A stretch of 32,501 nucleotides of DNA from Actinomycetota bacterium (lineage in GTDB: Bacteria; Actinomycetota; Thermoleophilia; Gaiellales; Gaiellaceae). Within the stretch, counting starts at the first letter, position 1. The number at the start of each line of letters is the position of its first letter. This document shows positions 26,477 to 32,501 of this stretch, piece by piece. Position numbers and translations under genes: made by a program. The notes beneath the pieces are model-generated. The model searched no databases. It was not told where the DNA came from and saw nothing but the letters and a program-made list of their open reading frames with translations. Location: assembly GCA_004366385.1 (NCBI GenBank), contig SIRU01000026.1, positions 1 through 32,501 of the forward strand. The letters are read 5' to 3'.

Positions 26477-27709
26477 ATGCGCGTCCTGCTCGTCGGCTCC
26501 GGGGGTCGTGAGCACGCGCTCGCATGGAAGCTCGCCCAGTCGCCGCTCCTGACGGAGCTCCACGCTGCGCCGGGGAGCCCGGGCATCGCGCGGCTCGGCG
26601 AGTGCCATCCGATCCGGGCCGAGGACTCCGAGGGGTTGCTGGCCCTCTCGCACTCGCTCGACGTCGACCTCGTCGTCGTCGGCCCCGAGGCGCCGCTCGT
26701 CGCCGGGCTCGCCGACGTACTGCGCCCGGCCGGCATCGCCGTCTTCGGGCCGAGCAGAGCAGCGGCTGCGATCGAGGGCTCGAAGTCGTTCGCGAAGGAC
26801 GTCATGGCGGCTGCCGGCATTCCCACCGCGTCCGCGCTGCCCGTCGCGCGGCCGCCGTGCGTCGTGAAAGCCGACGGTCTCGCGGCCGGCAAGGGCGTGC
26901 ACATCTGCCGCTCCGAGGCAGAGCTCGAGGCGGCGCTGCGCGCCGTCGCCGCGCTCGGGGACGCCTTCGTGGTCGAGGAGCTGCTCGAGGGGCCCGAGCT
27001 GTCGCTGCTCGCCGTCTGCGACGGCCGCGACGCCGTCCCGCTCGTGCCGGCGCAGGACTTCAAGCGCGCCTACGACGGCGACCTCGGGCCGAACACGGGC
27101 GGGATGGGCGCGTTCGCGCCTGTGCCGCGGCTCGGGGCGGCCGAGGCCGACGAGCTCGTCGACGCCGTCCACCGGCCCGCGCTGGCGGAGCTCGCTCGGC
27201 GCGGGTCGCCGTTCGTCGGCCTCCTCTACGCGGGGTTGATGATGACGCCGGACGGGCCGCGCGTCCTCGAGTTCAACTGCCGCTTCGGCGATCCCGAGAC
27301 GCAGGCCGTGGTGCCGCTGCTCGAGGGAGATCTCCTCGGGGTGCTCGCGGCGGCCGCGGCCGGGGAGCTCGGCGGCTTGGCACTGTCCGCTCGGCCCGGG
27401 GCGGCCGTGACGGTCGTCTTGGCCGCGGCGGGCTATCCGGCCGAGGGCGACCGCGGCTCGCCGATCACCGGTGTCGAGGACGCGGAGGCGGCCGGCGCGC
27501 TCGTGTTCCACGCCGGCACGGCAGTGCAGGGAGACCGGCTCGTGACGAACGGCGGGCGCGTACTCGGCGTCACCGGGCTCGGCGACACGCTGGCGGACGC
27601 TCGCGCGAAGGCGTACGCCGCGGCCGACCTCATCGCGTTCGACGGCGTGAGGCGGCGGGAGGACATTGCGCTCGCCGCCACGGGAGACACGGCGCTCGAC
27701 GTCTCTTGA
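26477..27709 (+). CDS. purD: Phosphoribosylamine-glycine ligase (GAR synthetase)
   Basis: A 410-residue ATP-grasp enzyme making glycinamide ribonucleotide, the second step of purine synthesis. The N-domain begins MRVLLVGSGGREHALAWKL. The ATP-grasp core shows VVKADGLAAGKGV, the family block GPNTGGMGAFAP, and FNCRFGDPETQAVVPLL. The C-terminal domain closes with GDRLVTNGGRVLGVTGLGDTLADARAKAY. It lies 62 bases after purA on the same strand, with its own likely leaderless promoter. Confidence 0.97.
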   Translation: MRVLLVGSGGREHALAWKLAQSPLLTELHAAPGSPGIARLGECHPIRAEDSEGLLALSHSLDVDLVVVGPEAPLVAGLADVLRPAGIAVFGPSRAAAAIEGSKSFAKDVMAAAGIPTASALPVARPPCVVKADGLAAGKGVHICRSEAELEAALRAVAALGDAFVVEELLEGPELSLLAVCDGRDAVPLVPAQDFKRAYDGDLGPNTGGMGAFAPVPRLGAAEADELVDAVHRPALAELARRGSPFVGLLYAGLMMTPDGPRVLEFNCRFGDPETQAVVPLLEGDLLGVLAAAAAGELGGLALSARPGAAVTVVLAAAGYPAEGDRGSPITGVEDAEAAGALVFHAGTAVQGDRLVTNGGRVLGVTGLGDTLADARAKAYAAADLIAFDGVRRREDIALAATGDTALDVS

Positions 27710-27754: not shown

Positions 27755-27840
27755 TCCGTAGTGGCCATGTCGGCTGTGGCCTCGTCCCGAGGGGCCACCC
27801 CGGGCCACCACCCACTGCCGAGTCTAGTCCGGAAGTCGAG

Positions 27841-27881
27841 ACGCGTGGGACACGCGGGTGTGCCAACTGTGTGCCTGTGCC
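27841..27881 (+). repeat. Dispersed intergenic repeat, copy A
   Basis: A 41-base motif starting ACGCGTGGGACACGCG and going on to GTGCC, TGTGTG and GTGCC. Its first 33 bases match 27 of 33 with copy B at 31436. It lies in the 298-base gap between purD and purB, about 130 bases upstream of purB. The rest of that gap holds hairpins and the purB -10 box. Confidence 0.55.
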
Positions 27882-28007: not shown

Positions 28008-29324
28008 GTGATCGCGCGCTACTCCCGGCCCGAGATGACGCGCGTGTGGTCCGATGAGGCCAAGCTCGCGAGCTGGCTCGCCGTCGAGCTCGCGGTCGTC
28101 GACGCATGGGCGCAGATCGGTGCGATCTCGGCCGAGACGGCGAGTGCGATCCGGGCGCGAGCGGTCGTCCCGTCGCCGGAGCGCGTCGCAGAGATCGAGC
28201 GGAAGACGAACCACGACGTCGCGGCCTTCGTGGACGCGGTCGCCGGCGACCTCGGCGACGACGGGCGCTGGTTCCACTACGGCCTGACGTCCTCGGACGT
28301 CCTCGACACCGCGCTCGCGCTCACCGTGCAAGACGGGGGCGGGATCGTGCTCGACGGGATCGACCGCGCGCTCCGAGCCGTCATGGACCGGGCCGAAGAG
28401 CACCGCGACACGCTCACGATCGGCCGGACGCACGGCGTGCACGCCGAGCCGACGACGTTTGGGCTCAAGCTCGCCGGCTGGGCGTTCCAGCTCGACCGCG
28501 ACCGCCGCCGCGTGGGCGCCGCCGTCGAGGGCCTCCGCGTCGGGAAGATGTCAGGTGCTGTGGGAACGTATGCCGCTGCGCCGCCGGAGATCGAGCGGCT
28601 CGCGTGCGAGGCGCTCGGGCTCGAGCCGGCGCCCAGCTCCACGCAGATCCTCCAGCGCGACCGCCACGCGGAGCTCCTGTCGGCGCTGGCCCTGCTCGCC
28701 TCCTCGCTCGAGCGCTTCGCGCTCGAGGTCCGCCACCTGGCGAGGACGGAGGTGCGCGAGGTCGAGGAGCCGTTTGCAGAGGGGCAGAAGGGCTCGTCGG
28801 CGATGCCGCACAAGCGAAACCCCATCGTCGCCGAGCGCATCTGCGGGCTCGCCCGCGTGGTGCGGGGGCACGCGCAGGTGGGTCACGAGAACGTTGCTCT
28901 CTGGCACGAGCGGGACATCTCGCACTCGTCCGCGGAGCGCGTGGTGCTCCCGGACGCGTTCCTCGCGGTCGACTACATGCTCGACCGCTTCGCCCGGCTC
29001 GTCGAGGGCCTGGTCGTCCGGCCCGAGCGGATGCGCGAGAACCTCGAGGCGACGGGTGGCCTGTTCTTCAGTCAGAGACTCCTGCTCGCCCTCGTCGACT
29101 CCGGTCTCGACCGCGACTCCGCGTACCGGGCCGTTCAGCGGCACGCGATGAGGGCATGGGACGAAGGGCTCGACTTTCGCGAGCTCGTCCGCGGCGACGC
29201 CGAGCTCGCCGCTCGCGTCGATCTCGACGCCGTCTTCGATCTGGGCGCGTTCACGGAGCACGTCGACGTCGTGCTCGCCCGGCTGCGGAGCATCCAGCCG
29301 CAAGAGGAGTCGGTCCGTGCCTGA
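28008..29324 (+). CDS. purB: Adenylosuccinate lyase
   Basis: A 438-residue lyase of the fumarase/aspartase superfamily acting twice in purine synthesis: on SAICAR and on adenylosuccinate. It starts IARYSRPEMTRVWSDEAKL. KTNHDVAAF carries H69, TSSDVLDTA and GRTHGVHAEP (H142) form the active site, and GSSAMPHKRNPI is the family signature loop. GTG 28008 is supported by a -10 hexamer at leaderless distance; the frame is open further upstream through the intergenic repeat, which is not coding-like. The next gene begins 8 bases before this stop. Confidence 0.97.
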   Translation: MIARYSRPEMTRVWSDEAKLASWLAVELAVVDAWAQIGAISAETASAIRARAVVPSPERVAEIERKTNHDVAAFVDAVAGDLGDDGRWFHYGLTSSDVLDTALALTVQDGGGIVLDGIDRALRAVMDRAEEHRDTLTIGRTHGVHAEPTTFGLKLAGWAFQLDRDRRRVGAAVEGLRVGKMSGAVGTYAAAPPEIERLACEALGLEPAPSSTQILQRDRHAELLSALALLASSLERFALEVRHLARTEVREVEEPFAEGQKGSSAMPHKRNPIVAERICGLARVVRGHAQVGHENVALWHERDISHSSAERVVLPDAFLAVDYMLDRFARLVEGLVVRPERMRENLEATGGLFFSQRLLLALVDSGLDRDSAYRAVQRHAMRAWDEGLDFRELVRGDAELAARVDLDAVFDLGAFTEHVDVVLARLRSIQPQEESVRA

Positions 29325-31130: not shown

Positions 31131-31409
31131 TCAGAGCCCGAGCACCTCGCCGAGGGCGGGCGCGCGCCCGAGCGCCGCCCGCAGCCGCTCGATGTCACGC
31201 GCCCGCATCGTGACGGGACCGCGCCTGGCCGATCCCTCGGTCGTGTATGCGAAGCGTACGAGGCGCTCGCCGTTCCCGGCCTCGAGGAGCTGAACCAGGA
31301 CCGCGAAGCGCTTCTCGCCGACCCGCTGGGCCACCGAGACCTCCTCGACCACGCTCGCCGCGCCCCACGGGGTCGCCACCGCCCTGCTCTTCGCCTGCGC
31401 CGTCGCCAT
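31131..31409 (-). CDS. Small conserved-looking protein, function unknown
   Basis: A 92-residue soluble protein, convergent with purQ (4-base gap). It has a mixed pattern of strands: AASVVEEVSVAQRVGEKRFAVLVQLLE, then ERLVRFAYTTEGSARRGPVTMRARDIERLRAALG, suggesting a small beta-sheet with a C-terminal helix. No cysteine, signal peptide or membrane segment. A TACGCT hexamer six bases before the ATG supports a leaderless start. I do not recognise the family. Confidence 0.7.
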   Translation of the reverse strand: MATAQAKSRAVATPWGAASVVEEVSVAQRVGEKRFAVLVQLLEAGNGERLVRFAYTTEGSARRGPVTMRARDIERLRAALGRAPALGEVLGL

Positions 31410-31415
31410 GAGGCG

Positions 31416-31421
31416 AGCGTA
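31416..31421 (-). promoter_or_regulatory. -10 hexamer of a leaderless promoter for the small unknown gene
   Basis: TACGCT on the minus strand, six bases before ATG 31409. Copy B of the dispersed repeat begins 14 bases further upstream and covers the -35 region. Confidence 0.4.
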
Positions 31422-31435
31422 GGCGGAAACCCGTC

Positions 31436-31477
31436 ACGCGTGGGATACGCGTTCGTGCCGAGTGTGTGACAAGTGCC
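31436..31477 (+). repeat. Dispersed intergenic repeat, copy B
   Basis: A 42-base motif starting ACGCGTGGGATACGCG, with GTGCC, TGTGTG and GTGCC in the same order and spacing as copy A. It lies between the small unknown gene and the second IS. Confidence 0.55.
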
Positions 31478-31514
31478 CGGAACCTGGGCGGGGAGCTACT
31501 AGAGGCTTGATGTG

Positions 31515-31546
31515 AAACGGCGGGTTCCGGCAGGGACCCGCCGTTT
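31515..31546 (+). promoter_or_regulatory. Strong hairpin at the left end of the second IS
   Basis: AAACGGCGGGT (31515-31525) pairs perfectly with ACCCGCCGTTT (31536-31546); TCC/GGG extends it by three pairs to a GGCA tetraloop. It lies upstream of the transposase and could stop transcription entering from outside. Confidence 0.65.
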
Positions 31547-31576
31547 GAGCACGAAGGAGGGCTTCCAGAGGTGTCC

Positions 31577-31595
31577 CTCGAGATGGAGGCTCGAG
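31577..31595 (+). promoter_or_regulatory. Hairpin presenting the transposase ribosome site in its loop
   Basis: CTCGAG (31577-31582), loop ATGGAGG, CTCGAG (31590-31595), directly followed by ATG 31596. The GGAGG ribosome site is the loop and the stem abuts the start codon. Confidence 0.6.
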
Positions 31596-32462
31596 ATGAC
31601 GACCGATCTGGAAGCCCTTGTCGTTGCAGCGTACGTCTTCGCTGACGAGTACCCGGTCCCTGCGCGTGGTGGCCGCAAGCCGCTGATCAGCGATGCCGAG
31701 CTGGTCGCGCTGGCGGTCGCGCAGGCGGCGATTGGGATCAGCTCCGACCGGCAGTTCCTCGGCTTGATCGGCCGGGTGCTGCCCGGCTGGTTCCCGCACT
31801 TGCCCGACCAGTCGCAGTACAACCGCAGGCTGCGAGCGTTGGTCGAGTTGATCTCGAGCGTGCAGCAACGACTCGCGCGCTGGCTCGACGTGGGCGGCGT
31901 CCGTCTCAGCGACGGCACCCTGATCGGAGTCGCCAACTATCCCGGCTGCCAGCGGCGAAGCGAGTTCGCCGGCTTCGCCCGCTTCGGCTTCGCCAAGTCA
32001 CAGCATCGCTTCGTCTACGGCGTGCGGCTGGTGCTGCTGACCGACGAGCGCGGCCTACCGCTCGGCTACACGGTCGTCCCGGCCAACGAGAAGGAGTACG
32101 AGCCACTCGCCGATCTGCTCACCGGCACCCCGAGCGAGGTCGTGATCGCGGACAAGGGCTTCTGGGGCCGTGCCTACGCCGAGCGGCTCGCGGCCGACGG
32201 CACGCGCCTACTCACGCCCGACAAGACACGGACGAACGCCAACGAGCGCCGCGAGCACGCGCTCGCCTCCACCCGGCTCGTGATCGAGAGCGTCTTCGCC
32301 AACCTGAAAGAGCAGATGAGGCTCGAGCGCCACCTCGCCCGCACCCCAGCGGGCCTCGCGCTGCGGATCGCGCAGCGCATCCTCGCGCTCACGCTCGGAA
32401 TGCTGCTCAATACGATCAGCGGCCGCCCGGCGCGCGCTCTTGCCGCCTACGACGGCCGCTGA
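31596..32462 (+). CDS. IS982-like DDE transposase
   Basis: A 288-residue transposase. N-terminal block PLISDAELVALAVAQAAIGISSDRQF matches that of the first IS transposase in pattern. The acidic triad is seen in VRLSDGTLIG, VIADKGFWG and LVIESVFANLKEQ, and the tail is TPAGLALRIAQRILALTLGMLLN. The first motif reads SDGT where the other element has LDST. The ATG is set by GGAGG six bases upstream; the frame is open further upstream through the leader hairpin but that extension is not supported. Family assignment is by pattern. Confidence 0.87.
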   Translation: MTTDLEALVVAAYVFADEYPVPARGGRKPLISDAELVALAVAQAAIGISSDRQFLGLIGRVLPGWFPHLPDQSQYNRRLRALVELISSVQQRLARWLDVGGVRLSDGTLIGVANYPGCQRRSEFAGFARFGFAKSQHRFVYGVRLVLLTDERGLPLGYTVVPANEKEYEPLADLLTGTPSEVVIADKGFWGRAYAERLAADGTRLLTPDKTRTNANERREHALASTRLVIESVFANLKEQMRLERHLARTPAGLALRIAQRILALTLGMLLNTISGRPARALAAYDGR

Positions 32463-32501
32463 ATCACATCAAGCCTCTAGCAACCGCCATAGCCGGTTTC
32501 G

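Follow-up and report, generated by a model that had tools for sequence, protein, structure and literature searches.

The 41-base motif that an initial annotation reported twice in the window (the 32,501-nucleotide stretch of Gaiellaceae DNA analyzed here) belongs to a real, family-wide regulatory element. Judged by its sequence, the annotation had seen half of that element, and on the silent strand: the motif is genuine, but it is only the upstream half of a unit of about 90 to 100 bp that reads on the minus strand. We consider it fairly probable that this unit is a promoter shared by a regulon, with a regulator on its direct repeats and two kinds of output, leaderless com mRNAs and RNAs that carry a G-rich leader.

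The two copies, at 27841 and 31436, match at 27 of their first 33 bases as originally described, and both are intergenic in a gene model predicted by our own script. In the fixed-geometry alignment, the upstream half of the copy 1 promoter spans 27827-27881 on the minus strand and holds the annotated motif on its other strand. Its half-sites, GGCAC (27875-27871), GGCAC (27864-27860), GTGTC (27853-27849), and GTCTC (27842-27838), follow one another in 11-bp steps. They are followed on the same strand by a -10 box, TAGACT (27821-27826), whose TA is kept in 8 of 8 aligned loci, and, from the inferred start, by a G-rich leader of type B, TGGGTGGTGGCCCGGGGTGGCCCC (27791-27814). The annotation had placed this copy upstream of purB (28008-29324, plus strand). 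This is right by position, but the promoter faces away from purB and its leader heads into the 3′ end of the gene at 26477-27709 (plus strand, script gene model), a putative purD-like gene named from its context. In relatives, purB has a leaderless promoter of its own, with TAGAAT or TACAAT before a GTG. For copy 2, the alignment of copies places the upstream half at 31422-31482 (minus strand), with half-sites GTCAC (31470-31466), GGCAC (31459-31455), GTATC (31448-31444), and GTGAC (31437-31433), again in 11-bp steps. Its -10 box, TACGCT (31416-31421, minus strand), lies 6 nt before the start codon of a 92-amino-acid (aa) gene (31131-31409, minus strand), which has a leaderless ATG at 31409 and no Pfam or NCBIfam match. 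An insertion sequence occupies 31499-32480, with perfect 17-bp terminal inverted repeats at 31499-31515 and 32464-32480. It stops 17 bp short of copy 2, on the upstream side of that copy; the contig of the window ends just past the insertion sequence, and contig C36 terminates with the same promoter as copy 2.

In the window alone, the 16-base core of the motif is at chance level when up to three mismatches are allowed (4 found, 2.99 expected). Across the whole source genome (G000; 2.73 Mb in 63 contigs), the core with at most two mismatches gave 23 matches versus 5 for a reversed control. Three of these were exact, the third being the contig-end copy of the same place on C36. By eye, we assigned 11 of the 23 to the family, 1 to the contig-end copy (of L003), and took the other 11 for chance. 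A profile built from the eleven family members (R1) found 85 places in this genome at E ≤ 10. A second profile (R2), built from 49 copies in the orientation opposite to the annotated strand, gave 64 matches at E ≤ 1e-3 by hand count, or 63 without the contig-end copy (L041, the L003 place, with the copy 2 sequence), which we excluded from models and counts. Both window copies were in the R2 training set, and both match it on the minus strand, at 27817-27881 (E 1.2e-10) and 31412-31479 (E 4.3e-15); purB's own leaderless promoter gave no R2 match in the window or at nine purB loci scanned. The annotation had proposed a genome-wide search for further copies, and such a search finds many; a genome-wide check of their positions shows that they sit between genes. 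Over 149 genomes of the class, R2 matched in 26, of which 24 are among the 29 members of family f1 (a total counted from the genome list) and 2 among the 120 elsewhere. Rfam had no match in the window at gathering score, and at eight loci only three subthreshold matches, all far under their gathering scores. Within the literature collection searched, we found no title or abstract describing the element.

Fifty copies aligned without gaps on the opposite strand read ATTGGCACACA-CTCGGCACGAA-CCCGTGACCCA-CGCGTGAGCGC-TTCCTCGN-TACGCT-N6-start. Each 11-bp step carries one half-site, in the order G[GT]CAC, G[GT]CAC, GTGAC/GTNNC, and GTGAG/GTNNN. The -10 box, TANNNT, is fixed in place with constant geometry, its T, A, and T occur at 95 to 97%, and the inferred start site is 7 nt downstream of it. 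The annotated strand was rejected as the reading strand, since leader, leaderless starts, and -10 box are all found on the opposite one. The conserved blocks that the annotation saw between variable triplets are, more exactly, half-sites of 5 bp at 11-bp intervals. Its suggestion of a protein-binding site is supported as well, since the motif appears to be the repeat-bearing upstream half of a promoter. The four half-sites, from about -60 to -15, would be occupied by a regulator, probably a response regulator of the OmpR/PhoB type, that brings RNA polymerase to the -10 box; transcription would begin at the inferred start. Response-regulator-like matches are abundant, with 26 in the source genome; MtrA and CiaR are OmpR/PhoB-type regulators. 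MtrA binds direct repeats of the GTnAC type at about this 11-bp spacing (PMC13189361, PMC2945938). WhiA, LexA, and PafBC sites and sigma-54 seem to have the wrong spacing or sequence and were dropped, as were MraZ boxes for the G-rich leader, whose period seems wrong.

The 63 places in the source genome fall into 58 with a leader, 4 that are leaderless (ComEA, ComM, the 92-aa protein, and a 68-aa protein), and 1 that is unassigned (L099). The start codon lies 6 nt past the -10 box in the 92-aa gene (31409), ComEA, and the 68-aa protein and 7 nt past it in ComM. ComF is also leaderless behind the promoter, with a weaker R2 match (E 0.003). Since R2 was trained on copies that include the leaderless ComEA, 92-aa, and 68-aa ones, these three genes of the source genome are not independent support; leaderless starts in matches outside the R2 model are those of ComM, in the source genome and in the complete sister genome G006, and of ComF. 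In other genomes, ComEA, ComM, YraN, and Y1 transposase genes, likewise outside the R2 model, are leaderless behind the promoter; the ThpR-like ligase gene is not counted among them, as its start is ambiguous. The product names (ComEA, ComF, YifB/ComM, YraN, ThpR-like ligase, and Y1 transposase) come from Pfam and NCBIfam, except that ComEA at L256 was identified by reading its translation. Pfam cutoffs were reached for ComEA (HHH_3 and SLBB), ComM, YraN, the ligase, the transposase, and the ComF zinc ribbon; NCBIfam models TIGR01259 (comEA), TIGR00201 (comF), and TIGR00368 (YifB/ComM) all matched at scores under their whole-protein cutoffs.

Across the family, a TANNNT lies 4 to 9 nt before the ComM start in 22 of 23 genes (shuffled mean, 0.69), and an exact G[GTA]CAC-N6-G[GTA]CAC is present in 5 of 23 (shuffled mean, 0.046). 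These counts exclude L373, where the start was not found, and the ComM of G014 (L383), whose frame is broken; the start at L360 was probably misset by the script. With positions read by eye, 8 of 24 full-length ComM loci and 12 of 24 ComEA loci have an R2 match at the start of the gene, the ComEA count omitting a match in L401 and one match each in L405 and L411 (not at the start). R2 thus misses 16 of the 24 ComM promoters and half of those of ComEA. In 7 of 8 genomes, coordinates put dprA about 1.2 to 1.9 kb away from the comM match, on one contig with it (the G157 ComM place is not included). Because leaderless comEA, comM, and comF follow the promoter, with dprA near comM, we call it the competence promoter, and most likely it defines a competence regulon in Gaiellaceae. 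The first output would then be leaderless mRNAs of comEA, comM (with dprA behind it), comF, and two conserved small proteins, including the 92-aa one. Many copies precede housekeeping genes (era, miaA, and tgt), an arrangement that a narrow competence regulon would not predict and that counts against one. A conserved small protein of no recognized family (67 to 68 aa in L121 and L097) is leaderless behind the promoter at L097, L121, and L335, in three genomes of two genera. At L077, a Y1 (RAYT-like) transposase gene lies leaderless right behind the promoter, as if it were in the competence regulon.

The second output would be RNAs with a G-rich, stem-loop-forming leader of 24 to 37 nt. Three leader types recur, although variants also exist: type A, GGGTGGAGGGTGG..CCCCACCCAGGGTGGGG (17 copies by script, 18 with one that it missed); type B, GGGTGGTGGG..GGGGTG.CCCC (13 copies); and type C, AGGGACACGGGAGTGCCCCTGGGGG (18 copies and five more). 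Their first 20 nt are 50 to 58% G, and they share a layout of G-run, C-run, G-run. Mean pairwise identity is 0.55 to 0.67 in the promoter, 0.85 to 0.98 in the leader, and 0.30 to 0.33 beyond it. The inner stem of type C occurs in ten variants, and in all of them the arms are complementary by 2 to 4 pairs. The pairing total is 31 versus 19.7 for shuffled partners, a value reached in 1 of 20,000 shuffles. The folding energy of the leaders is no lower than that of dinucleotide shuffles (mean z, -0.51 for type A, +0.63 for B, -0.79 for C, and -0.18 for relatives). Copies collected from relatives were the best-scoring ones of six other f1 genomes (G117, G157, G111, G012, G168, and G080), not the full set. 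Since these energies do not beat the shuffles, we limit the stem-loop claim to the covariation in type C, which argues for a conserved stem-loop there; in types A and B one is possible. Among 57 copies of the source genome, a search for intrinsic-terminator T-tracts found one run of four or more T's within 80 nt of the start. We read the leaders, from their sequence, as putative regulon-driven 5′ leaders or short noncoding RNAs.

Several further leader features came up in other genera. In 12 of 60 copies, by a loose pattern, a second motif of the type CGCGCGCGTGAACMTA follows the leader, 28 to 43 nt past the start site (L301, L302, L308, L310, L324, L325, L340, L341, L346, L350, L354, and L357). 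The genera of G117 and G157 (L299-L330) commonly have a fourth type of leader, GGGGAGGAGG(C/T)(C/T)GGG, with a Shine-Dalgarno-like AGGAGG inside but without a conserved start codon. The source genome and G111, which belongs to another genus (L236, L238, L240, and L242), have the same 25-nt type C leader without any difference, although it is rare in congeners, as if it had been transferred or homogenized.

The orientation of the copies is independent of the genes around them. Among 48 leader-bearing copies, the next downstream gene is codirectional in 26 and opposed in 22, and 11 copies lie between convergent genes; because of this near-even split, they are not simply gene promoters. Random orientation would also fit a mobile nonautonomous intergenic repeat of the REP/REPIN or MITE kind, perhaps moved by a Y1/RAYT transposase, that is neutral or selfish and carries its promoter incidentally. 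The patchiness of the type C leader points the same way: with at most one mismatch it has 21 copies in the source genome, 5 in G111, and 1 each in G006 and G009, and none in the other 295 of 299 genomes of the class. Y1_Tnp genes are present in 4 of 6 genomes tested, one such gene being that behind the promoter at L077, and upstream half-elements adjoin other palindromes. Yet in G006, 16 of 21 copies examined are flanked by proteins orthologous to the neighbors of a source-genome copy, two of the 16 (L106 and L293) on the strength of a single flank. The element between purD and purB has an R2 match in the window and in 7 of the 8 loci from relatives that include this region (L153, L154, L155, L157 [weak], L158, L159, and L161; L156 gave no match), so the site upstream of purB, for which the annotation had looked to relatives, is conserved. 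Aligning the window with these seven shows no variation in GGGGCCACCCC, in most of the leader, or in the TA of the -10 box, and variation elsewhere. Fresh copies of a mobile repeat should be evenly similar along their length, yet the leaders are far more alike than the promoters. G014 has 36 R1 matches at E ≤ 0.1 yet no Y1_Tnp; the gene is also absent from G020, and R1 matches are weak in both genomes. At 10 RAYT loci scanned, no full element was present, only two partial upstream halves. The annotation's alternative of a mobile repeat end therefore loses ground, with 16 of 21 places orthologous and no conserved end beyond the leader, and we regard a mobile repeat as unlikely. As a separate observation, the upstream half occurs alone, as CTGTGGA.CGATYGGCACAC..TYGGCAC, shortly before palindromes GGTGTCTGACACC or TGTCCAGGGTCTGACCCTGGACA in the source genome and G006 (L126, L132, L134, L122, and L129-L131); in G006, one of them has a Y1 transposase match about 110 bp away (L122/L151).

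The competence promoter could instead serve mRNAs only. The leader would then be a 5′ untranslated region (UTR) device, acting in start-codon exposure, RNA stability, or attenuation through alternative G:C:G pairing, to which the G-run, C-run, G-run layout would lend itself, and copies without a suitable gene would be relics or promoters of unrecognized small genes. For some type B leaders the spacing agrees with this. In several genomes the distance from these leaders to the gene behind them hardly varies at era (about 36 nt), at an ABC transporter gene (about 38 to 43 nt), and at miaA, names that come from reading the translations, and overall it is about 31 to 43 nt (L054, L056, L057, L059, L061, L066, L068, L104, and L107). 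Because of this near-constant distance, type B leaders at these three genes are likely 5′ UTRs. As an account of the whole family, we find the mRNA-only explanation improbable, given that 22 of the 48 leader-bearing copies face a wrongly oriented gene, 11 of them in convergent regions, and that conserved places with an opposed downstream gene exist, at purD-purB and at L094/L110. For about half of the places, those without a gene in the right orientation, the shared promoter would instead make a short noncoding or antisense RNA. Sites acting at the DNA level, for regulator titration or chromosome organization with the -10 box and leader holding a paused polymerase or a G-quadruplex, would account for the random orientation and the G content of the leaders, but this is very improbable, as no positions are better conserved than the T, A, and T of the -10 box, which serve leaderless genes at the same spacing, and type C has compensating changes (though a DNA palindrome could also give such changes).

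Loci from relatives carry the 92-aa gene of copy 2 in 8 of 8 cases, and in each of them a TANNNT lies 6 to 7 nt before the ATG or GTG. AlphaFold models the protein as five strands and C-terminal helices (pLDDT 80.8, pTM 0.66). The best Foldseek match of this model is Borrelia Pur-alpha, with a probability of 0.96 but an E value of 0.21. In a fold comparison, MoSub1 (Z 5.9; rmsd 3.6 over 72 residues), Pur-alpha (Z 5.6), and a PC4 homologue (Z 5.4) came out on top, all below the tool's reliable level. Because EF-P domains and KhtT score nearly alike (Z 5.3 to 5.5), the modeled resemblance to a PC4/PUR-like, single-stranded DNA (ssDNA)-binding-type fold is a weak hint. A search of PDB sequences with a profile of the protein returned nothing below E 0.38. 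If the 92-aa protein does bind ssDNA, this would suit a competence regulon.

Of the known systems, the CiaR regulon of streptococci is a close parallel. CiaR binds TTTAAG-N5-TTTAAG and drives intergenic csRNAs (PMC3091779), whose promoters combine the 11-bp repeat step with a -10 box, transcription being assumed to begin seven bases after it, and which are linked to competence; Streptococcus pneumoniae has five of them (PMC3091779, PMC8186281). Our element likewise joins a direct-repeat site with an 11-bp step to a -10 box with the start 7 nt on, forms many intergenic units, and is linked to competence. Unlike the csRNA promoters, it has a different half-site, belongs to another phylum, and comes in about 58 leader copies rather than five; no intrinsic terminators were found for it, and the same promoter also drives competence genes. 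By analogy, the module would work like a CiaR-type regulon promoter with csRNA-like offspring, yet it fails that family's terminator test. MtrA sites, given as GtnAcC-n5-GTnAcn in Streptomyces and as GTCACAgcg repeats in mycobacteria (PMC13189361, PMC2945938), likewise repeat a GTnAC-type half-site directly, with a step of about 11 bp; our element differs in having four tandem half-sites beside one -10 box, and no protein exceeded the MtrA cutoff (NF040689) in any of three genomes (best, 274.9 bits versus 300). With REP/REPIN repeats and their RAYTs (PMC8049555), the element shares tens of short hairpin-forming intergenic repeats and Y1 transposases in several genomes, but it is a single oriented unit with a promoter at orthologous positions rather than an inverted REP pair. 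In the actinobacterium Micrococcus luteus, the comEA/EC promoter of the com system is regulated, and the cascade upstream is still to be identified (PMC12849477). Control of a comEA promoter would be common to both, whereas the accessible portion of that paper gives no cis motif or regulator.

Taken further, the element may mark a Gaiellaceae competence regulon under an 11-bp direct-repeat regulator that includes about sixty units making short, 5′-structured, G-rich RNAs that are not mRNAs, together with a small ssDNA-binding protein. During DNA uptake, these RNAs might retune housekeeping genes or act as antisense RNAs or roadblocks at gene ends. We offer this as a tentative proposal, with the odds against it in its full form. 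To our knowledge, about sixty such RNA units would be far beyond any csRNA-type set. How natural transformation is controlled in Actinomycetota has yet to be settled (PMC12849477). If the competence-promoter reading is right, it would provide a concrete cis-element with which to fish for the regulator, and it would predict new regulon members, the window's 92-aa protein and a 68-aa protein. It would also mean that a promoter of competence genes was put to use again, dozens of times, among housekeeping genes, often where only a noncoding RNA is possible.
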